Positions 9,535 to 20,742 of a DNA stretch of 64,000 nucleotides are shown one piece after another; within the stretch, counting starts at the first letter, position 1; each line of letters starts with the position of its first letter. Both the position numbers and the translations under genes were made by a program. This DNA is from Chryseobacterium echinoideorum. GTDB taxonomy: Bacteria; Bacteroidota; Bacteroidia; Flavobacteriales; Weeksellaceae. The stretch is from the NCBI RefSeq assembly GCF_007474535.1, contig NZ_VKNW01000009.1, forward strand, positions 62,001 to 126,000, given 5' to 3'. The notes below the pieces were generated by a model, which saw nothing but the letters and a program-made list of their open reading frames with translations, was not told where the DNA came from and ran no database searches.

Positions 9535-10392
9535 ATGTTGATAAAAATTTACGGAAGTGCCATTTTTGGAGTGTCAGCTCAAACGATTACCATTGAAGTA
9601 AACGTCGATACGGGCGGTGTTGGCTATCATCTTGTAGGCTTGCCAGACAACGCCATCAAAGAGAGCAGTTACAGAATTTCGGCAGCTCTTAAAAACGTAG
9701 GATACAAAATTCCCGGTAAAAAAATTACCATTAATATGGCTCCTGCTGATTTGCGGAAGGAGGGATCATCTTATGATCTGAGTATAGCTATAGGAATTTT
9801 GATTGCATCTGATCAGATTGTAGCTGAAAATGTACATGATTATATCATTATGGGTGAGCTTTCTCTGGATGGAAGTCTGCAGCCAATAAAAGGAGTTCTG
9901 CCAATTGCCATTCAGGCTCGTGAAGAAGGCTTTAAAGGAATTATTTTACCAAAACAAAATACAAGAGAAGCTGCCATTGTCAATAATCTTGATGTATATG
10001 GTGTGGAAAACATAAAGGAAGTTATTGATTTTTTTAATGAAGGAAAACCTCTTGAAAAAGTAGTTTTAGATACAAGAAAAGAATTTCAGGAAAAAATAAA
10101 CCAGTTTCCGTTTGATTTTTCTGAAGTAAAAGGGCAGGAAACCGCAAAACGAGCAATGGAAGTTGCCGCAGCAGGAGGACACAATATTATTCTCATCGGG
10201 CCGCCCGGAAGCGGAAAAACAATGCTGGCGAAAAGAGTTCCTAGTATTTTGCCTCCTCTGACTTTAAAAGAAGCTTTAGAAACCACCAAAATACATTCTG
10301 TTGCGGGAAAAATGGGAACAGAAACATCTTTAATGACAGTTCGCCCATTCCGTTCACCCCATCACACTATTTCAGATGTGATTGTAGTTTAA
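9535..10392 (+). pseudogene. yifB: 5' part of YifB/ComM Mg-chelatase-like AAA+ ATPase, interrupted by an integrative element
   Basis: ComM/YifB is a hexameric AAA+ helicase that promotes branch migration during natural transformation. This fragment holds the N-terminal domain (residues 1-190) and the Walker A motif GPPGSGKT (222-229). It continues to [13 protein letters not shown], then reads into the inserted element as IVV and stops at 10390-10392. The native frame breaks after codon 281 (Asp). The Walker B half lies at 20743-21436. The fragment alone lacks Walker B, the sensor residues and the C-terminal domain, so it should be inactive while the element is present. Confidence 0.95.
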
Positions 10393-10400
10393 AAGGAGGT
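10379..10400 (+). repeat. Left integrase-binding arm of the element (half attP within attL)
   Basis: The arm begins TGATTGTAGTTT and ends GGAGGT. Compared with the inverse of 20717-20738 it matches at 16 of 22 positions. It lies 2 bases inside the proposed GA crossover at 10375-10376 and 26 bases before the integrase start. The GGAGGT also resembles a ribosome binding site but is too far from the ATG to serve it well. Confidence 0.7.
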
Positions 10401-10425
10401 CTGTATATTTGCTAAAATTTTTAAT

Positions 10426-12273
10426 ATGGATAAGGTTTGTATTTATGCAAGGGTTAGTTCAACAGATGGTAAACAGGATTACACTCGTCAAATAAATGAA
10501 TTGGAAGAGTTAATAATCAGATCAGGATATTCTAAAGAACAAATAGATGTTTATTCTGAGATGGTTTCCGGTTATAAAAAAAAAGAAGAAGACAGACCGG
10601 AACTTAATAAATTACTTTCTACAATAAGAACAAATCCAAATTCTTACAAAAAAATATTTGTAAGTGAAATTAGTAGATTAGGAAGAGATCCTAAATACAC
10701 TCGTGATATTATTGAAGAACTAACTGAACTTAAAGTCAATGTTCATATCAAATCTTTACAATTAGATACGCTAGACTCCAATGGTAAGAGAAGTATGATT
10801 ACTAGTATTATTCTACAAGTACTTATAGAATACGCAAATCTTGAAGCAGAGACGTTCAAAGAAAGATCAAAATCCGGTCTTTTGAAATCAGTTCGTTCGG
10901 GAAGGATGGGCGGTGGTGTATATTATCCCTATGGATACACAAAAGACGAGAATAAAATGATGGTGATCAATGATGAAGAGGCAATTATAGTAAAAAAGAT
11001 TTTTGATTGGTACGAGAGTGGTTTTGGAACAAAGGTTATTAGTAATTTACTAAATGATGAAAATATACCAACACGTTCAAACAAAATATTTGGTGATCGA
11101 ATTTTAAAGTTTGCGGTTCAGAAAAAGGCGTCAGATGTTAAATGGACAGACAAAGTAGTACATGATATTTTAAGAAATACATCATATATTGGACAAAGAA
11201 AATTTCTAAAACATATCGTTCCTTGCCCTCAGATTATCGATATCTCTCAATTTGAGAAATGTGGTGAACTTTTGGTAAGTAAGAGGTCTAAGGGAAATAC
11301 ATTATATACTTACATTTTAAAAGATATCTTAAAATGTGGTAACTGTCAAAGAAACTATTTCGGAAAATTTAAACCTAACAATCATGATGACAAGGTTTAT
11401 AAATGTTCGTCCACTAGAAATAGGAATGGTGGATGTGGACAAACCGGAATTAATATCAAACTTATTGAAAGTACAATCTATCATTTCTCTTGTATTATGA
11501 TTAACTTGTTGAATTTTATTAATTTAACAGATGAAACAATACAAAGTATTGAAAAGAAAAACGAAATTATCAAGAACAATATTAAAAGTGAAGAATATTT
11601 GGTTTCTCAACTTATGTCACGTAAAGAGAAACTATTTGATTATTTTTTATCATCAGACATGGATAAATCTAATTTCGATAAAAAAGAATCTCAATTATTA
11701 AAGGAAATCGAACTGAAAACAAAAAAAATAAATTTATTTAAGAAAACTTTGGAAACAAATAATAACCAATTACGGAGAGGTTCAGAGAATAAATTTATTA
11801 ATTCAGCGAGTGATCGTCAACAATTACATCAAAATCTAAAAAAAATATATGAAAAGATAAGTATTATTGAGACTAATTTTGACCACGTTAAATTAAAACT
11901 AAGATTTTCGTTACACAACAATAATTTTGTTGATTGTGAACTACTTCTTGATAAAAAAGGTATCAGATTAAAAAATAAAAGATACCGATATAAGGTTTAT
12001 TTAATCGAAGGAAACTTTAATGAAAAGTATTTTTCTGTGTTTGGTTCAAAATATAAGAAGGCGAACAAATATGTTGTACCAACAGATGAGGGAGAGACAT
12101 ATAATTACTCTCTTAAAGAAATTTTAAGAAAATATGAGGACTTAGACCAATATTCAAAAGATAGTATGGATCAAAAATTTCAAGAATATTTGAAGAGACT
12201 AATTTTGGCTAAACCGTTTGAATTTGGAGAATGGTTTGAGTTAGATGATGAGTTTCTTTTGGATGTAATATGA
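10426..12273 (+). CDS. Large serine integrase
   Basis: A 615-residue site-specific recombinase that would integrate and excise the element through a phosphoserine intermediate. The N-terminal resolvase domain (1-150) has YARVSS with catalytic Ser11 and Arg9, and SEISRLGR (residues 80-87) with the conserved Arg84 and Arg87. A recombinase domain follows (about 160-290, RMGGGVYYPYGYTKDE). The zinc ribbon uses C304, C307, C327 and C337. A coiled coil occupies about 365-450, and a C-terminal 150-residue extension has no motif I can name. It is the first gene inside the left end, as usual for such elements. Confidence 0.95.
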   Translation: MDKVCIYARVSSTDGKQDYTRQINELEELIIRSGYSKEQIDVYSEMVSGYKKKEEDRPELNKLLSTIRTNPNSYKKIFVSEISRLGRDPKYTRDIIEELTELKVNVHIKSLQLDTLDSNGKRSMITSIILQVLIEYANLEAETFKERSKSGLLKSVRSGRMGGGVYYPYGYTKDENKMMVINDEEAIIVKKIFDWYESGFGTKVISNLLNDENIPTRSNKIFGDRILKFAVQKKASDVKWTDKVVHDILRNTSYIGQRKFLKHIVPCPQIIDISQFEKCGELLVSKRSKGNTLYTYILKDILKCGNCQRNYFGKFKPNNHDDKVYKCSSTRNRNGGCGQTGINIKLIESTIYHFSCIMINLLNFINLTDETIQSIEKKNEIIKNNIKSEEYLVSQLMSRKEKLFDYFLSSDMDKSNFDKKESQLLKEIELKTKKINLFKKTLETNNNQLRRGSENKFINSASDRQQLHQNLKKIYEKISIIETNFDHVKLKLRFSLHNNNFVDCELLLDKKGIRLKNKRYRYKVYLIEGNFNEKYFSVFGSKYKKANKYVVPTDEGETYNYSLKEILRKYEDLDQYSKDSMDQKFQEYLKRLILAKPFEFGEWFELDDEFLLDVI

Positions 12274-12282
12274 AATATCAAC

Positions 12283-13185
12283 CTAAGGTTTTCTGAATAC
12301 TTTTACATTAGGACTAACGAATTTATCAATCTCAGTAAAATTAGAAATATCTATACCTACCAATCTTAAAAGGTTTCTTATATTTTCACCTATTAGATTA
12401 CCCTTTATAGATAATGGATGATCAAAAACAATCTGTACATCTAATAGTCCGTCATCGTTTATAAACCAATTGCAATAGACTGCGAGCGGTCTATCTCCAT
12501 CCCATTTGTCTTTTGACATTCTGTAATTTAACGCTTTACAAGCGAAGTATATATTATTTTGAACAGAGAACTCATTGATATTTTTCATTTTATCCAAATA
12601 ATATTCAATATTAGAAACAATTGAATCCGATTCAAGTATAAAATTAGCTACACCACTTTCAATAATAATTTCACCATTTACCTTACAATTACGTTTTTCA
12701 GCAGATAAGTTTGAACCTGAAAAAACATTAATTTTTTGATCGTTGGAAAGTTCAATCATCCCAGATTTTTCACCGCTGAGGACATTCAGTAGTTCAAATT
12801 TCCATCCAATTTTAATACAGTTTTCTTCAGTTCTTTTAAAACGATCTATGTTTATAAGATAATCATTAACAAACGATTTCTCAATTTGTTTTACACTTTG
12901 GGTAATAATTTCTTGTGCGTTTTCCCCTAAAATTTCGATAGCCCTACTTAGAGATATCTTATTTTCTAAAAAGTCAGCGTTGTGTTGTTTAACGGATATT
13001 TTCAACTCCTTTTTGGTACCGGACAAATCTTCCAAAAGAACATAAATATCGGTTTTACATTCTCCCCGAGATGGTCTGGGTTTACCTACTTTTTTAACAA
13101 GATATTGGATGTTATTTAGAGTTATCGACTCTGAGTCTAAGAATAATTGTAGAATGTGTTTTTCTGTGTTACTATAATTTGTCAT
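12283..13185 (-). CDS. Probable type II restriction endonuclease (PD-(D/E)xK-like)
   Basis: A 300-residue protein I do not recognise by family name. Residues 38-67 read PSRGECKTDIYVLL, then a charged turn, then KELKISVKQ. This places E42, D46 and S64-V-K66 as a plausible PD-(D/E)xK metal site with Ser in place of the usual acidic residue, a pattern seen in several type II endonucleases (TDI...SvK). The start at 13185 overlaps the end of the controller gene by 14 bases, and the cognate methyltransferase is divergent. Gene position supports the role more than sequence does. Specificity cannot be read from the sequence. Confidence 0.65.
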   Translation of the reverse strand: MTNYSNTEKHILQLFLDSESITLNNIQYLVKKVGKPRPSRGECKTDIYVLLEDLSGTKKELKISVKQHNADFLENKISLSRAIEILGENAQEIITQSVKQIEKSFVNDYLINIDRFKRTEENCIKIGWKFELLNVLSGEKSGMIELSNDQKINVFSGSNLSAEKRNCKVNGEIIIESGVANFILESDSIVSNIEYYLDKMKNINEFSVQNNIYFACKALNYRMSKDKWDGDRPLAVYCNWFINDDGLLDVQIVFDHPLSIKGNLIGENIRNLLRLVGIDISNFTEIDKFVSPNVKVFRKP

Positions 13186-13389
13186 AATTCTCTAAGATCT
13201 CACTGAGACGTATTTCTAGTGCGGTTGATAGTTTATGGGCAACCTCTAATGAAACTTTTCTTTTACCTTGTTCAATATCACTTATATAGGTTCTGTCAAC
13301 TTCTGATTTAAGTGCTAACTGTTCTTGGGAAATACCTTTTTCCTGCCTGATTTGAAATATTTTTTTCCGAAGAATTCGCTAATATTCAT
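13172..13389 (-). CDS. XRE-family controller of the restriction-modification locus, read through a -1 frameshift at an A7 heptamer
   Basis: From ATG at 13389 the frame reads MNISEFFGKK and then hits a stop 15 codons later. A -1 shift on the A AAA AAA heptamer (T7 on the plus strand, 13360-13366) continues as IFQIRQEKGISQEQLALK and on to YISDIEQGKRKVSLEVA, a typical XRE helix-turn-helix of 72 residues ending at 13172. The helix-turn-helix frame has a TAG just upstream of the A tract and no ATG or GTG of its own; a rare ATT codon is the only other option. Overlap with the endonuclease gene suggests translational coupling. Whether the shift is programmed or a one-base deletion is open. Confidence 0.7.
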
Positions 13390-13486
13390 AGTTTATAAAA
13401 TTCCAAAATACATTAGAGATGTGCAATAGACAGTAGTCGACAAACGATTGAGTTTTTTTTTATACTTTTGAAGAAAATTTGTGGTT
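13390..13486. promoter_or_regulatory. Divergent control region of the restriction-modification locus
   Basis: It separates the controller/endonuclease genes from the methyltransferase gene. TACTTTTG at 13463-13470 fits the -7 consensus TAnnTTTG for the methyltransferase. GACAGTAGTC (13429-13438), an inverted GAC/GTC, overlaps the palindrome GTCGAC (13436-13441) and could be the controller's operator. The operator is an inference from symmetry only. Confidence 0.45.
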
Positions 13487-14515
13487 ATGAGAATTTCATC
13501 ATTCTTTGCAGGAGCAGGAGGATTAGATTTAGGATTTAAGAAGGCTGGATTTGAAATAGTCTACGCAAATGAATATGATAAAACTATTTGGAATACTTAC
13601 GAAGAAAACCATCCTGAAACCTTTTTAGATAAAAGAAGTATTGTGGATGTACATTCTGATGATGTTTTCGACTGTGATGGTATTATAGGGGGTCCTCCAT
13701 GTCAAAGTTGGAGTGAGGCAGGGGCATTGAAAGGTATAAATGACAAAAGGGGACAATTATTTTTTGATTTTATTAGGATTCTTGAAGCGAAACAACCTAA
13801 GTTTTTTCTAGCGGAAAATGTTAGTGGAATGTTATTAAATAGGCATACTGACGCTCTAGAAAACATCAAAGAAATGTTTAGGAAAGCTGGTGTTGGATAT
13901 GAACTCTCATTTCAAATGGTTAACGCAGTAGATTATAATGTTCCTCAAGATAGAAAACGAGTAATATTTGTTGGGATTCGTAAGGATCTGAACTTTAAAT
14001 ATGAATTTGAAACTCCCAATTTCAAAAAGTTAACTCTAAACGATACTATATCAGATCTGACCGATAATGTATTGCCGGCAATTGAGAAAAATAAAACAAA
14101 CGGTGATAACTGTTTAGTTCCAAATCATGAATTTATGACCGGTGGTTTCTCCACAATATATATGTCTAGGAATAGAGTTAGAAGTTGGGATGAACCATCT
14201 TTCACTATACAAGCTGGTGGAAGACATGCGCCACTCCATCCTCAGGCACCAAAAATGAAACACGTTGAACAGAATGTTAGAATTTTTCAACCAGGCTATG
14301 AAGATAGTTATAGAAGGTTGAGTGTAAGAGAATGTGCAAGAATCCAAACTTTCCCCGACGATTTTATTTTCCGTTACGAGAATATCGCAGATGGTTATAA
14401 AATGATTGGTAATGCTGTACCGGTCAACTTGGCGTATTTTTTAGCGGAATCAATAAAAAAACAACTTAATAAGAACGAAAATATTTTAAGAAGAAACGCT
14501 ATTCTAACACCTTAA
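13487..14515 (+). CDS. DNA (cytosine-5-)-methyltransferase, M.HaeIII-like
   Basis: This enzyme methylates C5 of cytosine in a specific DNA site and protects against the adjacent endonuclease. The 342-residue product has motif I FAGAGGLDLGF, motif IV GGPPCQSWSE with catalytic Cys72, motif VI AENVSG, motif VIII QDRKRV, and motif X IGNAVPVNLAY. Long stretches resemble the HaeIII methyltransferase, including the target-recognition segment FTIQAGGRHAPLHPQAPKM. Recognition of GGCC is therefore possible but unproven, since the target domain differs in places. A GTG at 13481 could add two residues. Confidence 0.93.
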   Translation: MRISSFFAGAGGLDLGFKKAGFEIVYANEYDKTIWNTYEENHPETFLDKRSIVDVHSDDVFDCDGIIGGPPCQSWSEAGALKGINDKRGQLFFDFIRILEAKQPKFFLAENVSGMLLNRHTDALENIKEMFRKAGVGYELSFQMVNAVDYNVPQDRKRVIFVGIRKDLNFKYEFETPNFKKLTLNDTISDLTDNVLPAIEKNKTNGDNCLVPNHEFMTGGFSTIYMSRNRVRSWDEPSFTIQAGGRHAPLHPQAPKMKHVEQNVRIFQPGYEDSYRRLSVRECARIQTFPDDFIFRYENIADGYKMIGNAVPVNLAYFLAESIKKQLNKNENILRRNAILTP

Positions 14516-14844
14516 CGATTTTTCCTACTCGTCATTAATTTCGATTTTCCAATTTTTTTTTTAGAAAATTTTTATTTCATTTAGACTATCGAAGGGGGTA
14601 TAAAAAGATTAATTTCCCTTGTATACTGAGGGAGGATTTGGAGGGGGGTAGGGCTTCAAGGGGGATGTTTGCAAATGGCAAAGAAATACTTTCTCTACAG
14701 GTGATTATAAGTTATTTTGCACACTCCTTGCGTTCATTTAATTCAAAATAAATTAAATCTCACATTTATTCTAAGAAACCCTTATTATATGCGGCAGAAC
14801 GGCGTTTTTGCCGTATTTTTATACTGTGATTAATACGAGTACAA
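14516..14844. other. Gene-free stretch with G-rich runs and a hairpin upstream of the small recombinase gene
   Basis: No coding sequence is supported. G-runs at 14594-14598, 14630-14632, 14643-14648, 14651-14653 and 14660-14664 stand out in an otherwise AT-rich element; 14630-14664 has four runs of at least three G and could form a G-quadruplex. At 14799-14815, ACGGC and GCCGT flank a T-rich loop and are followed by ATTTTT, which may be a weak terminator or a recombinase-related inverted repeat. Confidence 0.6.
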
Positions 14845-15456
14845 ATGAGAGTAAAGTATAATAGAGTTTCAACATTGGTTCAAACCGGAAATAGGTTCGA
14901 GGCGGATAAAGATAAATATGATTTGATTTTCTTAGATAAAATTTCAGGGTCAATTAGTTTCAAAGATCGTCCAAAATCAAAAGAATTGATTAAACTTGTT
15001 GAAGAGGGTCTAGTAACAGAAATTGTAGTCGAAGAATTTTCTAGGTTAGGACGAAATACGGGAGATGTAATCCAAACTTTAGAATGGTTTGAAGAAAAAG
15101 AAATAAATGTAGTAATTAGAAATATTGGTCTTCAATCACGTGCGAACGGAAAGAAAAATCCAATTTGGAAAATGATTTCATCGGTTATGTCATCACTTTA
15201 CGAAATGGAACTCGAAAACATTTTAGAAAGAACATCGGTCGGTAGAATGATGTATGTTCAAAACGGTGGAATTTTAGGTCGACCTGTCGGAACAAATGAA
15301 GGTGATTCTATCTTTATCAGTAAACCAAAGAATAAAAAGGCTTTGGAATATTTAAAAAAAGGGAGAACTTTGAGGGAAATTGGAAAACTCTTAGGAATGT
15401 CTACAAAGACCGTAATGAAGGTGAAAAAGGTCGCAACTAGTCATAAGTTATTATGA
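14845..15456 (+). CDS. Small serine recombinase (resolvase/invertase type)
   Basis: A 203-residue member of the resolvase family, with KYNRVST placing the catalytic Ser at residue 9 and VVEEFSRLGRNTGDV carrying the conserved Arg residues. The long E helix (WKMISSVMSSLYEMELENILERTS) is followed by a C-terminal helix-turn-helix (TLREIGKLLGMSTKTVMKV). Relatives resolve cointegrates or invert DNA at short crossover sites. It is distinct from the large integrase. No res or inversion site could be identified with confidence nearby. The product begins with MRVKYNRV, close to the usual N-terminus. Confidence 0.9.
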   Translation: MRVKYNRVSTLVQTGNRFEADKDKYDLIFLDKISGSISFKDRPKSKELIKLVEEGLVTEIVVEEFSRLGRNTGDVIQTLEWFEEKEINVVIRNIGLQSRANGKKNPIWKMISSVMSSLYEMELENILERTSVGRMMYVQNGGILGRPVGTNEGDSIFISKPKNKKALEYLKKGRTLREIGKLLGMSTKTVMKVKKVATSHKLL

Positions 15457-15790
15457 TGTAGACTTTTATGTTGAAAATATTTCTCTATAAGTTTTCTAGA
15501 AATTTTTTTAAAAAAACAAGGCGAATTCGCTGTGTCGTATGGTGTCTTTTTAGGGCAAAATAATTATCTCTGCAGGTCCTCAACTCAACTTGGCATATAC
15601 AGAATGTACATTTCCACCAAAAATAGGCTAAGAACAAATAAATATAATTTACGGCAAAAAAGTACCATAAAGTAACAAAATAAACCATATTTTTACATTA
15701 ATTAACCTTGTATAAGAACTAAAAGTACATCACAATTTACAATTCAAAAAAAATTACGACTGACTGTTAATTCCTCTATAAGTATAAACG
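15457..15790. other. Gene-free stretch between the small recombinase and the two-gene operon
   Basis: AT-rich with no credible gene. GCGAATTCGC at 15521-15530 is a perfect 10-bp palindrome. CTCTATAAG occurs at 15483-15491 and again at 15774-15782, just before the next start. These could be recombinase or regulator sites, but nothing decides it. A promoter for 15791 is expected here, though no clear TAnnTTTG box was found. Confidence 0.5.
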
Positions 15791-16528
15791 ATGAAAATAA
15801 ACACTATTTTATTCATTTTACTTCTGATAATACCGGTAATTATTTACCTTACTTTTTATGAGTATGTTCAAACATATTGGGAAAACTTTGACAAAATTCT
15901 GACAATAATTTCTTTTGTCTTTGCTATGTTGACTTTTTACTATAATACAAACCTTAAATTTCACTTCTTACTTAATAGAATATTGATTCTGTTGAAAAAA
16001 GATTATAATATTTGGACATTTTCAACCTCTTTTGAAATTGAAAATTTAGAGGAAACAATGAATGTTGAACAGAAACTTAGGAGTGATGACATTAAAATAG
16101 AAAATTTCACACAGAATTCGATTACTTTTAAATTTAAAAATTTAAACCAATATCGATTAAAATTTAGTCCAGCTGATAACACCATTCATTTAATTTCTGA
16201 CAAAATTATCGTTCCAAATAAACGAATTAATCTTACCATAAAGGAGTTTAGAAAACTAATCGAAAAATTGAATCAAATTTTCCACTCAAAAAATCATTCT
16301 AGCGAACAATTTGAAGTTGGAATCGAGTATACGTCAAATCCAATGTTAACTTATGCGCTGAAAAAAATACCGGAAGAAAATATAATCGGTTTCAATCTAA
16401 ACATTCAAAATCCTACTCTTAATTATAAATTAAAATCATCCGGCAACTCAGTATATTTAAGTTCAACGAACTTAGAGGATTTCATAGGAGTAATCAAAAA
16501 TTATAATAGTTTACAATTTGAATTATGA
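15791..16528 (+). CDS. Membrane-anchored protein of unknown function, first gene of a two-gene operon
   Basis: I do not recognise this 245-residue protein. The N-terminus has two hydrophobic helices, roughly residues 3-21 and 34-50 (TILFILLLIIPVIIYLTF and ILTIISFVFAMLTFYY). The remaining 190 residues form a soluble domain rich in Asn, Lys and Ile with no catalytic motif. The second gene starts within its last codons (ATGA overlap at 16525-16528), so the products are probably made together. It sits between a recombinase and an XRE regulator, the kind of place where phage-defence or toxin-antitoxin cargo is often found, but this is only positional evidence. Confidence 0.65.
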   Translation: MKINTILFILLLIIPVIIYLTFYEYVQTYWENFDKILTIISFVFAMLTFYYNTNLKFHFLLNRILILLKKDYNIWTFSTSFEIENLEETMNVEQKLRSDDIKIENFTQNSITFKFKNLNQYRLKFSPADNTIHLISDKIIVPNKRINLTIKEFRKLIEKLNQIFHSKNHSSEQFEVGIEYTSNPMLTYALKKIPEENIIGFNLNIQNPTLNYKLKSSGNSVYLSSTNLEDFIGVIKNYNSLQFEL

Positions 16529-17217
16529 ATACATTTAGATTTGTTAAAATTAGTAAATTTCCTGACCTGATCATTAATCAAGAAATTAGCAACCAATACC
16601 AAAGTACTTTACCGGGATTTACAGAGGCTAAACAAACGTCTATTAAATGTGTTAATAAAAATTACCATGGATTTGAGCTATATGAGGTTTCACACGAGTT
16701 AATAATTAAAGAAATTGGATTAGCGTTCGGGTATGTTGATAATAACCCCGTTACAATGGAACTAAGTGGTTATAAAAAGAAATACACAGTAAAATTATAT
16801 TATAAAAAAGATAAAAAGTACGCATTCATTAGCGAATCATCCGCAGTTGTTAAAGACCTTATCAAAACTTTTAAAAGAGATATTAGTTTACAAGTAGAAT
16901 TGGAAGAGATTGATCTAGATTTTACTGAACTATCTAAACACGTAGATGACTATACGGGCGCTTGGTTCAAAGGAGTAAGTTCTCGTGTAACTTCAACAGC
17001 CTTATTTGGCGCAAATTTAAGTGATGACCCGTTGTTTTCTCAACTTAAAAAAGAAGGTGCTAATCTATCCTCTATTGTAATACCATTCGGTGGAATACAA
17101 ATTCAAATAAGTAAATCCGGTGGTATTTCTTCTCAACAAACTATTCGCAGTATTAGGGATCAACTTTCTCTTGTGACAAAAATAAAAGACAACCTGTTCG
17201 ACAAAATTATGGTTTAA
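16525..17217 (+). CDS. Soluble protein of unknown function, second gene of the operon
   Basis: A 230-residue protein without signal peptide or membrane segment; I cannot place it in a family. Notable stretches are DDYTGAWFKGVSSRVTSTAL near residue 142 and FGANLSDDPLFSQLKKEGAN, then a Gly/Ile-rich IVIPFGGIQIQISKSGG. No nuclease, ATPase or protease motif is evident. The start overlaps the upstream gene by 4 bases, indicating translational coupling with the membrane protein. A partnership of a membrane sensor or effector with a soluble partner is one possibility. It ends 7 bases before the convergent XRE gene. Confidence 0.65.
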   Translation: MNTFRFVKISKFPDLIINQEISNQYQSTLPGFTEAKQTSIKCVNKNYHGFELYEVSHELIIKEIGLAFGYVDNNPVTMELSGYKKKYTVKLYYKKDKKYAFISESSAVVKDLIKTFKRDISLQVELEEIDLDFTELSKHVDDYTGAWFKGVSSRVTSTALFGANLSDDPLFSQLKKEGANLSSIVIPFGGIQIQISKSGGISSQQTIRSIRDQLSLVTKIKDNLFDKIMV

Positions 17218-17224
17218 TTCTAAA

Positions 17225-17488
17225 CTATTTTTTTATTGTAGATGGATTTTCAACTTTATTGAATTCAAATAATTCGGAAAATTCTACATCAAGGGCTACC
17301 GATATTCTGTACAAAGTTATTAGACTAGGAGACATTCTACCTGATTCAATCCTACTCATATTAGATTTCTCAAAATTACATAACGCACCCAATTCCGACT
17401 GAGAAATATTTTTTTCTTGTCTAATCGTTTTAATTCTATTACTAATTAGTTTTTGTAAGGATTCCTTATCCAATATGTCCTTCATCAT
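17225..17488 (-). CDS. XRE-family transcriptional repressor
   Basis: A small helix-turn-helix protein. The N-terminal domain LISNRIKTIRQEKNISQSEL then CNFEKSNMSRIESGRMSPSL is a canonical XRE motif, and the C-terminal SVALDVEFSELFEF is typical of the short family. Consecutive ATG codons at 17488 and 17485 give 87 or 86 residues; an upstream TTG at 17506 is less likely because it would place an operator inside the coding region. Two matching operators (17488-17503, 17522-17537) overlap or lie just upstream of the start, pointing to autoregulation and control of the divergent gene at 17650. Confidence 0.88.
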   Translation of the reverse strand: MMKDILDKESLQKLISNRIKTIRQEKNISQSELGALCNFEKSNMSRIESGRMSPSLITLYRISVALDVEFSELFEFNKVENPSTIKK

Positions 17489-17503
17489 TATCAAAAATGA
17501 TAA
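17488..17503. promoter_or_regulatory. Operator 1 for the XRE repressor
   Basis: TTATCAAAAATGATAA is a perfect TTATCA-N4-TGATAA palindrome overlapping the start of the repressor gene. Its centre is 34 bp from operator 2, about three helical turns. Confidence 0.75.
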
Positions 17504-17521
17504 CAATTCGTTATTGGATGG

Positions 17522-17537
17522 TTATCACTTGTGATAA
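17522..17537. promoter_or_regulatory. Operator 2 for the XRE repressor
   Basis: TTATCACTTGTGATAA has the same TTATCA-N4-TGATAA form and extends by one more pair on each side (17521-17538). It lies just upstream of the -7 box of the divergent transcript. Confidence 0.78.
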
Positions 17538-17543
17538 CTTCAC

Positions 17544-17551
17544 TATCTTTG
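17544..17551 (+). promoter_or_regulatory. Candidate -7 promoter box for the gene at 17650
   Basis: TATCTTTG matches TAnnTTTG. Operator 2 covers the region immediately upstream, so bound repressor would block this promoter. Confidence 0.5.
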
Positions 17552-17649
17552 TATTAATCTTAGATAATGTTACATTATTACATGTACGCTGTTATAAAAT
17601 TACTAATGTTTAAAAAAGATATCTAAAATAAATAAACACAAACAACTAT

Positions 17650-18399
17650 ATGGACTACATTAACTATTTACAAGATTTTGATTTTACCGTATTCTACAAA
17701 GTATCTTTTCTCCTACCGTTTTTAGGTATAATAGTTCTTATCAAAATCCTTTCTTTAATTGTAGCGTTAATAAATTCGAGAATGGACGATAGTGATGACG
17801 ATATTAAAATTACACCATTATCAAATATAATTTTTTACATTATTTTTTCCTTTTCCCTTGTTACCATACATGATCACTATAACGGTAAACAAAATCAAAA
17901 CTTTAAGTTTTCAAATTATGGTTATTTCAGCGAATTTGAAGAGATAAACCAAAATTATAGGGAACCGGATAATATTACAGATACCGTAGATAACAATAAA
18001 ACTATTGTTATTGATCAACTACCATCAGTACTTACTAAATCAGAACTCCTAAGTTTAGAGAAAGACCCCAAATTTATGGTTGTAGTAGACGAAATATTTC
18101 GCAGTGCGAACGATTACGTAGGTTTCGTTCCTGAAGAAACTTGTGGTCAGGAAGAAGGTGTGTGTAAATGGTGTGGAAAAACATTTCTTCAAGATCGATT
18201 TACGGTTCCAACAATAATTGCTATAACGGAACAAATAGGAAAGAATATGTTAATTATCCACGACGGTTGGAATGATAACTTTACTTACAAATATGTGAAG
18301 GATTACGAAAATGGTATAAAAAGTCAATGCGTGACTTATAAAAAAGATTACTGTTCTTTAAAATGTGAAAAGGAATTCAAACAAGATAGAGGTTACTAA
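17650..18399 (+). CDS. Membrane protein with a C-terminal cysteine cluster
   Basis: 249 residues of unknown family. Two N-terminal membrane helices are visible at about 15-43 and 58-73. A hydrophilic segment follows, then a C-terminal domain with C165, C172, C175 (VCKWCGK), C227, C235 and C239 (YCSLKCE). The CxxC and CxxxC pairs suggest a treble-clef-like zinc site. It is divergent from the XRE repressor and probably controlled by it through the operators at 17488-17537. The 84-residue membrane protein follows 11 bases later and is likely in the same transcript. Confidence 0.65.
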   Translation: MDYINYLQDFDFTVFYKVSFLLPFLGIIVLIKILSLIVALINSRMDDSDDDIKITPLSNIIFYIIFSFSLVTIHDHYNGKQNQNFKFSNYGYFSEFEEINQNYREPDNITDTVDNNKTIVIDQLPSVLTKSELLSLEKDPKFMVVVDEIFRSANDYVGFVPEETCGQEEGVCKWCGKTFLQDRFTVPTIIAITEQIGKNMLIIHDGWNDNFTYKYVKDYENGIKSQCVTYKKDYCSLKCEKEFKQDRGY

Positions 18400-18410
18400 A
18401 ACGATAAATT

Positions 18411-18665
18411 ATGAAAAAGATATCACTAATTGGAATTTTCCTAAGTTTACTTGGAATTATTACAGAGTTTACTGTAATTGAAAATTATAATAATTTTTTT
18501 GACACCATTTTAACTAATCGAAATTCTTATAATTCTGACATAAAATTGAAAATTTTTAATACAGTTCATTTATTGGATTTCGGTTTTAATCTTTCATTTC
18601 TATCAATTGGAATTTCCATCATATCTCTTATCTTATTTGTAAAACTCTATACTTCAAAAAAATAA
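18411..18665 (+). CDS. Small two-helix membrane protein
   Basis: 84 residues with two hydrophobic helices (SLIGIFLSLLGIITEF near the N-terminus and FLSIGISIISLILFV near the C-terminus), joined by a polar loop. No homologue is recognised. Spacing of 11 bases from the preceding gene supports a shared transcript. Its size and topology fit a holin-like or small inhibitor protein, but there is no direct evidence for either. Confidence 0.55.
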   Translation: MKKISLIGIFLSLLGIITEFTVIENYNNFFDTILTNRNSYNSDIKLKIFNTVHLLDFGFNLSFLSIGISIISLILFVKLYTSKK

Positions 18666-18670
18666 AAAAC

Positions 18671-18690
18671 TCAACGCTGTAAGTCGTTGA
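18671..18690 (+). terminator. Possible weak terminator after the small membrane protein gene
   Basis: TCAACG (18671-18676) pairs with CGTTGA (18685-18690) around an 8-base loop. The tail is only moderately T-rich, so termination is uncertain. A second small inverted repeat, CCACT/AGTGG at 18775-18789, lies before the polymerase-like gene. Confidence 0.35.
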
Positions 18691-18818
18691 ATATTTGGTG
18701 TTTACTATTTTGTCTTAATTGTCTGTACTATCAACTTTTGTTTTTTCAAAAAAAAAAGGTTATATTTTATTATACCACTTTAACAGTGGGAATAAAAGTT
18801 TTTTAGTTTTTAACAAAA

Positions 18819-20348
18819 ATGTACAAAAAGAAAGAGTACCGTATAGTTTCAATAACGGTACCGAAAGAAATCAATTATGACATAATTTTTTCAAAAATTA
18901 CTGGTTCAGAAAAGGAGATTAGTAATATTAAACATTCAATTCTATTATTCCTTTCATTTCTCAATCCTACCGATTATTATCTAGAAAAATATAAGTCAGA
19001 GGACTATTTTAAAAGTATTAATTCGGTTGAATTTAATAAATTAACGAATAACAAACTAACAAAAGTAAAACGCCTTTTACTTAATCCTGATTATCCGGTT
19101 ATTGATATAAATGAAAGTTATCAAAGTGGAAATTATAGTAAATCATATAGACTTAATGAGAAATTCTTCTATTCTCCTAAGAAAACGGTTTCGATTCAAT
19201 CTAAGATTTCACAGAACTATTTTGATTTTTTGGAAACAAGAGAAAATAAATTACAAAAATCTCTAGAAGAGTACCGACACTTAACAAAATCTTATAATCC
19301 GAAAATTGTAACATTGAATCCATTGGTTACAGAATATATTAATGAGGTTGAGAAATTGATTTTTCAGAAATATAAAAATCATCTTTCACTGAAGGATTCC
19401 GTTCTTTTAGAGGGTATTCTAAACAGGAAGATTAAAAGTATGAGGAAATCTGTCGAGAAAATTTTTAACGGTGTTTTTGGTGTCTCTATTTCAGATAGTA
19501 ATAAAAGATTAAATAGTATAATAACCAATATGAAAAGAGAGTTAAGAAGTTTTCTTTTAATTGATGGAGAATCTACTGTAGAAGTTGATATCAACAGTAG
19601 TCACCCTTATATATTAGGTTCAATTATAAATAAAAATTTTTTATATACAAATGATGAATTTTCATTTTGTAATCTATACAAGGATTTTTATAGTTATATA
19701 AATAATAATAGTTTATTAAAATTATATAATAATGACTTTAATATTGTAAAAACTTATACTAATAATATAACAAACCCTACGGGTTCTTTTATGTTTGGGG
19801 AAATTAACAATATGGATGTTCAGAATTATCAGAAATTACCTTTTACTGATGGAATATATAATTACATTAATAAAGAAGTTTTTAAAGGATTATTTGATGA
19901 AAAAACTATTAAGAAAGGGGTAATGAATTTTCTAAATATGAAAAAATTTAGAACGAAAAACTTTATTGTAAAAACATTAATTGAGGAGTTTCCCCATGTA
20001 AATTATTTCATTGAAACTATACAAAAACTTGGTCAGACAAAATATAATTTATCAATTCTTCTACAAAGAGTAGAATCGTATCTTTTGTTAGAGATATGCG
20101 GAAAGGTATTGAACAGTAATGAAATCAGTTTTATTACAGTCCATGATTCTGTAATTGTCAATCACGAGTTGGGAAATAAAACCTTTAAGATGATTAAAAA
20201 TTCAATTGAAAAAATTACCGGATTACCTATGGGGTTAAAGATTACAAGAAATAATCCCTTCGATTTTATAAATGAAACCGTTGAAGAAATTTGGAATGAT
20301 TCGGTTTTAACAACAAAAAAATTCAAAATAAAAAATGATAAAAATTGA
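18819..20348 (+). CDS. Polymerase-like protein with family A palm-type motifs
   Basis: I do not recognise a named family, but three motifs occur in the order of family A DNA polymerases and single-subunit RNA polymerases. Residues 254-266 (VEVDINSSHPYIL) resemble motif A with Asp257. Residues 362-371 (K-x3-K-x3-N-F) resemble motif B of the O helix. Residues 438-446 (FITVHDSVI) match motif C, with His442-Asp443. The 509-residue length leaves no room for standard exonuclease domains. The N-terminal 200 residues have no motif I can name. In this element it is the best candidate for a replication or DNA-synthesis protein. It overlaps the next gene by 14 bases. Confidence 0.6.
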   Translation: MYKKKEYRIVSITVPKEINYDIIFSKITGSEKEISNIKHSILLFLSFLNPTDYYLEKYKSEDYFKSINSVEFNKLTNNKLTKVKRLLLNPDYPVIDINESYQSGNYSKSYRLNEKFFYSPKKTVSIQSKISQNYFDFLETRENKLQKSLEEYRHLTKSYNPKIVTLNPLVTEYINEVEKLIFQKYKNHLSLKDSVLLEGILNRKIKSMRKSVEKIFNGVFGVSISDSNKRLNSIITNMKRELRSFLLIDGESTVEVDINSSHPYILGSIINKNFLYTNDEFSFCNLYKDFYSYINNNSLLKLYNNDFNIVKTYTNNITNPTGSFMFGEINNMDVQNYQKLPFTDGIYNYINKEVFKGLFDEKTIKKGVMNFLNMKKFRTKNFIVKTLIEEFPHVNYFIETIQKLGQTKYNLSILLQRVESYLLLEICGKVLNSNEISFITVHDSVIVNHELGNKTFKMIKNSIEKITGLPMGLKITRNNPFDFINETVEEIWNDSVLTTKKFKIKNDKN

Positions 20349-20676
20349 TTTAAGAAACGACTGTCAGGAGTTGAGAAATGAATTTCCACATTCTCAATTT
20401 ACAGACTTATTTAGTAATTATTTAATAGGTGTTACAAAAGACAACGAGGCGACCTATGACGGTGAAAAAATTATGGATAATCTAATGAAAAAACATACAT
20501 TCAACTCAAATAACGAATTCATAGAGAAGTACCTTGAGTTGGAAAGTAGATTGGAAAACTATTTTAAACATATTACAGATGTCAATATTAAAGCGCCAAG
20601 ATTGGTGTATATTTCCGATTACTCTTGTCAAGCCTTAACAATAGATAAGACTGAAACTTTAGAATTGTCAAGTTAA
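20335..20676 (+). CDS. Small acidic protein of unknown function
   Basis: 113 residues, no signal peptide or membrane helix and no recognised domain. The central part (NNEFIEKYLELESRLENYF) is likely helical. The start overlaps the polymerase-like gene by 14 bases, so the two are probably translationally coupled and may work together. It is the last gene before the right end of the element. Confidence 0.6.
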   Translation: MIKIDLRNDCQELRNEFPHSQFTDLFSNYLIGVTKDNEATYDGEKIMDNLMKKHTFNSNNEFIEKYLELESRLENYFKHITDVNIKAPRLVYISDYSCQALTIDKTETLELSS

Positions 20677-20689
20677 TTGTTTGATTATA

Positions 20690-20726
20690 AAAGGTGGTGG
20701 ACATCATAATTTATTCACCACCCTTT
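20690..20726 (+). terminator. Inverted repeat at the right end of the element, possible terminator
   Basis: AAAGGTGGTG (20690-20699) can pair with CACCACCCTTT (20716-20726) across a 16-base loop with one bulged base. It follows the last gene and its right half is part of the right attachment arm, so it may serve both termination and integrase binding. Confidence 0.45.
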
Positions 20727-20738
20727 ATATTACTTTCA
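20717..20738 (-). repeat. Right integrase-binding arm of the element (half attP within attR)
   Basis: Read on the minus strand it begins TGAAAGTAATAT and ends GGGTGGT, matching the left arm (10379-10400) at 16 of 22 positions. In the rejoined circle the two arms would be separated by 6 bases centred on GA. Confidence 0.7.
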
Positions 20739-20742
20739 GAGA

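Follow-up and report, generated by a model that had tools for sequence, protein, structure and literature searches.

A predicted family A polymerase carried by a serine-recombinase element in comM of Chryseobacterium echinoideorum

Does a chromosomal island of Chryseobacterium echinoideorum bring along its own enzyme for making DNA and, if so, what would that enzyme copy? The question arises from a 509-residue open-reading frame in the window, the whole 64,000-nucleotide stretch analysed here (contig NZ_VKNW01000009.1, positions 62,001 to 126,000), which a preliminary description made from the letters alone had read as a stand-alone polymerase-like protein, possibly of family A type, on an integrative element. 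Element-borne polymerases that can start DNA chains come, to our knowledge, from few families only. piPolB of pipolins, a family B polymerase on an integrative element, has reported primer-independent activity and had been offered as an analogue; the analogy stands at the functional level, both being polymerases carried by an integrative element, but not at the level of family, which is B there and, by its predicted fold, A here.

The polymerase gene lies in an element that splits comM

The comM gene is interrupted in the window: its N-terminal part stops near 10376, the gene resumes near 20734, and each junction has a copy of TTTCAGA. The intact comM of five aligned relatives bridges the two pieces. 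Of 20 comM loci, all but the window have a frame at least 514 aa long (19 of 20). The element inside comM measures ~10.36 kb and has the following features:

10370–10376: left TTTCAGA copy at the comM junction, placed by comparison with the intact comM of relatives
10426–12273, + strand: large serine recombinase, 615 aa (Pfam Resolvase, Recombinase and Zn_ribbon_recom)
12283–13185, − strand: type II restriction enzyme, cargo (PADLOC REase_II, 1.1e-47)
13481–14515, + strand: 5-cytosine DNA methyltransferase, cargo (PADLOC MTase_II, 1.7e-110; DruM, 1.5e-111)
14845–15456, + strand: small serine resolvase/invertase, 203 aa (Pfam Resolvase, 5e-19)
15791–17217: two adjacent open-reading frames of 245 and 230 aa, the first beginning with hydrophobic helices by eye
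17225–17506, − strand: Cro/C1-type HTH regulator, 93 aa (Pfam HTH_3, 4.9e-11)
17650–18665, + strand: pair of open-reading frames of 249 and 84 aa that by eye resemble membrane proteins
18819–20348, + strand: family A polymerase-like protein, 509 aa (open-reading frame, invariant residues, model and fold match)
20335–20676, + strand: open-reading frame of 113 aa, its first 14 nt shared with the end of the polymerase gene
20734–20740: right TTTCAGA copy at the comM junction, placed by the same comparison

The 615-aa recombinase is likely the integrase of the element. No helicase, primase or relaxase was found among the ten element proteins scanned against Pfam, which leaves the polymerase as the sole replication-like gene seen. 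Multi-copy iterons were not found (the best tandem array has two copies of a 22-nt unit), repeats, Rfam and consensus promoters gave nothing in the element that would serve as an origin or promoter, and no near-identical copy of the element was found among plasmids. The membrane-protein-like pair at 17650–18665 had no Pfam match above cut-off; it has counterparts near the polymerase in the two nearest relatives (L093:8061-8937 and L094:3780-4922), with sizes across the three loci of about 200–270 and 84–102 aa, and the larger protein has Cys pairs. The same two relatives hold near the polymerase a ~574-aa protein in which a ParB-like domain and a DNA methylase can be read by eye (L093:14436-16160, L094:8356-10077).

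Relatives of the large serine recombinase at E 1e-20 were present in 5 of 197 genomes, its own included. In G052, G054 and G164 the relative adjoins a 284-residue comM piece, with the rest of comM on the far side at a spacing of ~16.6, ~10.5 and ~21.2 kb, respectively. A polymerase relative lies between the comM pieces in G052 and G164, G054 has a resolvase and no polymerase that could be found, and in G118 the recombinase relative and the polymerase are on different contigs. Three of the four comM-borne serine-recombinase elements bracketed at both ends (window, G052 and G164) carry the polymerase.

As a separate observation, large serine recombinases that are related to one another have comM as a common integration site in four genomes (L288/L292, L289/L295, L290/L293 and window 10370-20740), each insertion cutting after about 284–285 residues with the remainder 10–21 kb off, and the G164 stretch shows a second, short comM piece.

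An invariant active site on a predicted family A palm

The frame at 18819–20348 (+, 509 aa) was confirmed by the open-reading frame listing, and the predicted layout of its protein is:

Residues 1–146: winged-helix-like N-terminus
Residues 144–480: polymerase core, with thumb-like helices, Arg230, the palm residues Asp257 and Asp443, and K365 in the fingers

Motif A (VEVDINSSHPYIL) holds Asp257 and motif C (FITVHDSVI) holds His442-Asp443. Two collections of relatives were used, a profile of 17 (A1) and an alignment of 64 (A2). Arg230, Asp257, Tyr347, Glu419 and Asp443 are invariant in A2 (64/64 each) and His442 is kept in 62/64, and as judged from this alignment the conservation of Asp257, Asp443 and His442 is beyond what chance would give. 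The motif A and C aspartates of the preliminary description are thereby real, and Arg230, Tyr347 and Glu419 are additions to its list; its motif B was right in part, the string K362-x3-K366-x3-NF occurring in the window protein, but the family-wide lysine (63/64) aligns with K365 and with neither K362 nor K366. The arginine column of R-x3-K holds R in 53/64, K in 6/64 and Glu361 in the window protein, for which an alignment shift of one residue would yield K362-x3-K366 as the counterpart.

Motif A continues with Ser at +4 (58/64) and with Gln at +5 (47/64), where the window protein has His, and motif C is mostly HDS (Ser444 in 49/64). Pol I has Glu at motif A +5, and T7 RNA polymerase has Ser at motif A +4 and HDS as its motif C; the Gln or His at +5 and the HDS motif C are compatible with either choice of sugar (dNTP or rNTP). 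Arg230 sits 27 residues before motif A, and we take it for the putative equivalent of the hairpin arginine known for family A enzymes (PMC2579912, available text).

The preliminary description had set structure prediction and a fold search as its test, and a palm fold was found. The AlphaFold2 model with A2 has a pLDDT of 87.6 and a pTM of 0.82, and a Foldseek search of the PDB returned 51 matches at E ≤0.001, with family A DNA polymerases filling the best 50 (top E 4e-6; whole-chain TM by query length low, 0.27–0.39). With a second structural aligner, residues 144–480 matched Pol theta (Z 16.4, rmsd 4.0 over 265 residues), T7 DNA polymerase (Z 15.7, rmsd 3.8 over 270 residues) and Klenow (Z 15.6, rmsd 3.5 over 266 residues); the 50 matches listed are all family A DNA polymerases, with rmsd 3.4–4.2 over 262–274 residues and a Z (about 14–16) that exceeds the tool's stated background. 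A family A palm fold of the core, as the preliminary description had proposed, is well supported by this model, and fold and comM element together support its stand-alone polymerase on an integrative element. Nor is any exonuclease domain seen in the model, as it had also said, and two long helices at 169–216 could be a thumb. As to piPolB, all matches listed are family A, with family B folds possible beyond these. Among the first 50 matches to viral models are an uncultured marine phage 'putative DNA polymerase I', a Rheinheimera Barba phage 'DNA polymerase', the Aeromonas 4L372D protein and the Zamilon virophage replication protein.

Modelled alone, residues 1–146 reached a pLDDT of 93.4 with an order of elements that we read as winged-helix-like. 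Foldseek returned no match for them at E 0.001, the top match being 4pql (a DNA-binding-protein N-terminal domain, E 0.045) and the next three being 5kbj chains (a Rep-DNA complex, E 0.12–0.27), and the second aligner returned many winged-helix proteins, Rep domains and the N-terminus of T7 RNA polymerase, all at Z <7. We claim only a winged-helix-like arrangement for this model and nothing narrower; a role in finding DNA may be inferred from it. An initiator-like (Rep) identity of the N-terminus is not claimed, with no Foldseek match at E 0.001 and Z <7 throughout.

A single-subunit RNA polymerase that transcribes the genes of the element is an unlikely reading of these data. The serines at motif A +4 and at position 444 are those of T7 RNA polymerase, and the N-terminal domain aligns with the N-terminus of that enzyme (3e3j; 100 residues, rmsd 3.4); the Z of 5.5 is, however, at background level, and by profile the family matches T7 RNA polymerase at 1.0%. 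The second-aligner matches listed are all DNA polymerases, which does not in itself exclude RNA polymerases, just as the absence of T7 RNA polymerase among the 50 whole-model matches listed does not rule one out. RNA synthesis has also been raised as an option for divPolA2, a polymerase of barbaviruses and Vibrio phages published in 2024 (PMC11348598, available text).

Sporadic distribution and a profile link to divPolA2

The polymerase gene is single-copy in its own genome. A single-sequence search matched 17 of 147 related genomes and the A1 profile 52 of 247, own included in both, and the genus of the window accounts for 45 of the 52 (own included); across the phylum the A1 profile matched 18 of 395 genomes. 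The family is sporadic in its distribution, unlike the housekeeping PolA, which was found in 41 of 41 genomes. Pfam gave no match to the 509-aa protein, PF00476 (DNA_pol_A) matched 0 of 17 members at E 0.1, no Pfam or NCBIfam model was matched consistently across the members and the PADLOC models matched at most 1 of 17 each. The window polymerase matched phrog_4756 alone in PHROGs (E 2.5e-9), and the PHROGs matches across family members are to unnamed families only. A PDB sequence-profile match to a transcription regulator (E 0.45) was read as chance, a later profile search gave no match, and a peptide-pattern search of genome contigs gave 43 stretches, none of them a relative.

A plasmid search with the window polymerase found none, and searches with three other members each found the same single Hymenobacter plasmid, which has a separate annotated initiator. 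Among viruses, the family occurs at 17 loci on IMG/VR contigs and in six unannotated records of uncultured phages of 595–735 kb (LR756501-LR756504, LR756511 and LR745206), and the island profile picks up, by hmmsearch, ORF100 of Vibrio phage ICP1 (L280:3179-4846), annotated as hypothetical. On the 345-kb phage contig L034 the polymerase adjoins a 1292-aa gene (L034:8717-12592) that looks by eye like a tail sheath, with no recognised replication genes beside it.

For profile comparison we assembled six phage proteins: AUR84708 (the divPolA2 example modelled in PMC11348598, available text), one barbavirus protein and four derived from 4L372D, namely the Aeromonas 4L372D protein, a close copy, and others obtained by tblastn from it. 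The 4L372D protein matches 290 phage records, 115 of Rheinheimera and 146 of Vibrio. In hhalign, A2 matched the six at 98.1% (E 6.7e-14, 173 columns) with Arg230, Asp257 and the HD motif aligned, a value which, like all that follow, comes from a single pairwise comparison and not from a database search; plain hmmsearch with A2 found three of the six and missed AUR84708 and the barbavirus protein. The corresponding values were 0.9% for bacterial PolA, 1.0% for T7 RNA polymerase, 0.7% for T7 DNA polymerase, 1.4% for the presumed TV-Pol of Microcystis phage LMM01 (one clade, with the gene chosen by its motifs) and 0.1–0.2% for four unrelated control families; divPolA2 against bacterial PolA gave 10.8%. 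On this profile evidence the island family is kin to divPolA2. In a tree of 70 rows, which has several long branches and a root for drawing only, L002 and L003 cluster with the window protein (100/99), and a separate branch holds the six phage proteins (100/100).

Recombinases recur beside the polymerase

Genomic context was scored at 40 loci, the window and 39 fetched ones, hand-chosen for spread among the profile matches; L129 was dropped because no family open-reading frame was found there. A recombinase lies near the polymerase in 30/40 loci and neither kind does in 10/40. Tyrosine recombinases are within seven genes in 25/40 and small serine resolvases near in 7/40, and a single base is shared between a resolvase gene and the start of the polymerase gene in L288, L290 and L291. 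In 16/40 loci an excisionase-like HTH gene precedes the polymerase on its own strand, three genes away at most, and the order integrase, excisionase-like HTH, polymerase on one strand occurs in 12/40. The base rate of Phage_integrase (121 Pfam matches in 20 genomes, ~78 Mb, or ~1 per 0.64 Mb) leads one to expect 2–3%, a figure to be set against the 25/40 with the reserve that it was obtained by Pfam and the loci, themselves hand-chosen, were scored by BLAST clusters.

Could the polymerase be anti-phage defence cargo, sensing infection or making a toxic product? Its sporadic distribution and the restriction-modification genes of the window would fit, as would a PADLOC scan at 1e-5 of eight neighbours from seven other islands, selected for their defence-like look, in which four of the seven islands gave matches (AbiH and Gabija GajA in L118, type I restriction in L121, PDC-S06 in L107 and LmuB in L101) and the neighbours in L117, L119 and L124 gave none. 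The recurrent neighbours are, however, integrase, excisionase-like and resolvase genes and not one cargo, no PADLOC model matches more than one of 17 members, and relatives are carried by phages, and we consider the defence reading quite unlikely.

In eight islands (L095, L096, L098, L099, L100, L103, L113 and L114) the polymerase is accompanied by an AAA_24 ATPase and a DUF3871 protein, assigned by Pfam on one protein of each.

Relation to known element-borne polymerases

Element-borne family A polymerases have already been published as TV-Pol (2008, PMC2579912), CcPol-MP (2020, PMC7581432) and PolA-SSB (2023, PMC10061031), and our comparisons draw on the available text of these sources. A literature search on A-family polymerases with integrative elements and Bacteroidota found no account of the island family, the Bacteroidetes TV-Pols of 2008 being a possible overlap. 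TV-Pols resemble the island family in their stand-alone family A core, protein sizes of 400–600 residues, residence in mobile elements, resolvase or integrase neighbours, and a hairpin Arg, two Asp and R-x3-K (with Glu361 of the window protein at the R position). The window element differs in showing no D5-type helicase among its ten scanned proteins, which only some TV-Pols have, and the conserved fingers Asp of TV-Pol is not apparent in the island family, where Asp stands in 3/64 at 344 and 8/64 at 345, near the invariant Tyr347, the equivalent column being uncertain (PMC2579912). A role in replication or establishment was proposed for the TV-Pol elements (PMC2579912), and replication-type activity was demonstrated in vitro for CcPol-MP (PMC7581432, PMC10061031).

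CcPol-MP and PolA-SSB are likewise family A enzymes, some with an exonuclease remnant only, on serine-recombinase islands with restriction-modification cargo (PMC7581432, PMC10061031). The island polymerase lacks two defining features of PolA-SSB, close kinship to Pol I and an associated helicase: it is not recognisable by sequence as PolA (PF00476 0/17; profile 0.9%), and no COG3378/DUF927 helicase was seen among the ten scanned proteins of the window element; it further differs in its N-terminus, and no conserved small partner was found (PMC10061031). The available part of a survey of bacterial polymerases (PMC12926913) does not contain the word CcPol.

The likeness to divPolA2 extends to its build, for according to the available text of PMC11348598 that enzyme lacks an exonuclease and joins a family A palm, with its motifs A, B and C, to a different N-terminal domain. 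There a globular N-terminal domain replaces the PolA thumb, and the window model has possible thumb helices at 169–216; the island family differs in its place in chromosomal islands of Bacteroidota, beside integrases and resolvases, and in its separate branch of the tree (100/100). divPolA2 is not the only polymerase of its phages, which have a regular one besides, and its authors regard the barbavirus enzyme as most likely not replicative, leaving repair or RNA synthesis as options (PMC11348598).

A repair or gap-filling polymerase that aids integration or survival of restriction, with no part in initiation, would agree with that option and with the variable neighbourhoods which the same authors report (PMC11348598, available text). 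We nevertheless hold it to be improbable for the islands, as the resolvase overlap and the order integrase, excisionase, polymerase point to a mobility module and the winged-helix-like N-terminus suggests DNA recognition.

The 113-aa frame that overlaps the polymerase gene had been proposed as its partner, an idea left unsupported by its want of clear relatives: across 197 genomes its own copy alone is convincing, and no BLAST relative at 1e-5 was found within seven genes of the polymerase at the other 39 loci (open-reading frames of at least 60 aa). Six matches in other genomes (E 3e-4 to 9e-3, one with an internal stop) were read as chance. A new PolA-SSB primase branch with this protein as SSB subunit is highly improbable, for although the element is of the same kind, with a large serine recombinase and restriction-modification cargo, and a small downstream frame does overlap the polymerase gene, that frame has no convincing relative in the 197 genomes or at the 39 loci, no helicase was found among the ten scanned proteins and PF00476 matched 0/17 members at E 0.1.

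A proposed role in copying the element

From its predicted fold, invariant active site and mobile setting, the 509-aa protein is likely to be a working polymerase. We give a probability of about one half to its being an element-encoded DNA primase/polymerase that helps to copy the excised or incoming element, a role which the preliminary description had also suggested and which has its support in context, with integrase and excisionase-like neighbours and the resolvase overlap in relatives. The protein would form part of a replication or maintenance module, as a family A polymerase that is active in catalysis and has no exonuclease. It would act after excision by the serine recombinase, or on single-stranded element DNA entering a cell; the winged-helix-like N-terminus may then bring it to element DNA, where it would start and/or extend strands of DNA rather than RNA. 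Completion of the copies would fall to host enzymes, and multimers of the element may be separated by the small serine resolvase.

Such a replication or establishment module fits the order integrase, excisionase, polymerase and the resolvase overlap. Active-site residues kept in 64/64, the family A fold and the sporadic distribution count in favour of copying, as do tyrosine recombinases at 25/40 loci against a base rate of 2–3% and the polymerase in three of four comM elements. Counting against it are the want of a helicase among the scanned element proteins, unlike PolA-SSB elements, and of a visible origin or iterons, the separate initiator on the Hymenobacter plasmid, the variable phage settings (the tail-sheath neighbour in L034, the regular polymerase of divPolA2 phages), the defence cargo of several islands and the 10/40 loci with neither recombinase. 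The Gln or His at motif A +5, the HDS motif C and the PolA profile match of 0.9% also count against the primase/polymerase reading.

A bolder version would make the protein a self-contained family A initiator-polymerase, in which a winged-helix domain resembling the one in RepA_N plasmid initiators recognises the origin and, fused to it, a primer-independent core alone starts replication of small Bacteroidota islands, a counterpart to piPolB whose phage relatives (ICP1 ORF100 and those of the huge phages) would be descendants or donors; this we regard as unlikely.

The element-copying role that we prefer concerns a polymerase family that is common in one genus, has no consistent Pfam or NCBIfam model and connects chromosomal islands bearing defence cargo with the phage enzyme divPolA2. 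The activity of the island protein would bear on the role of divPolA2 in ICP1 and barbaviruses, and on whether the islands replicate once excised.
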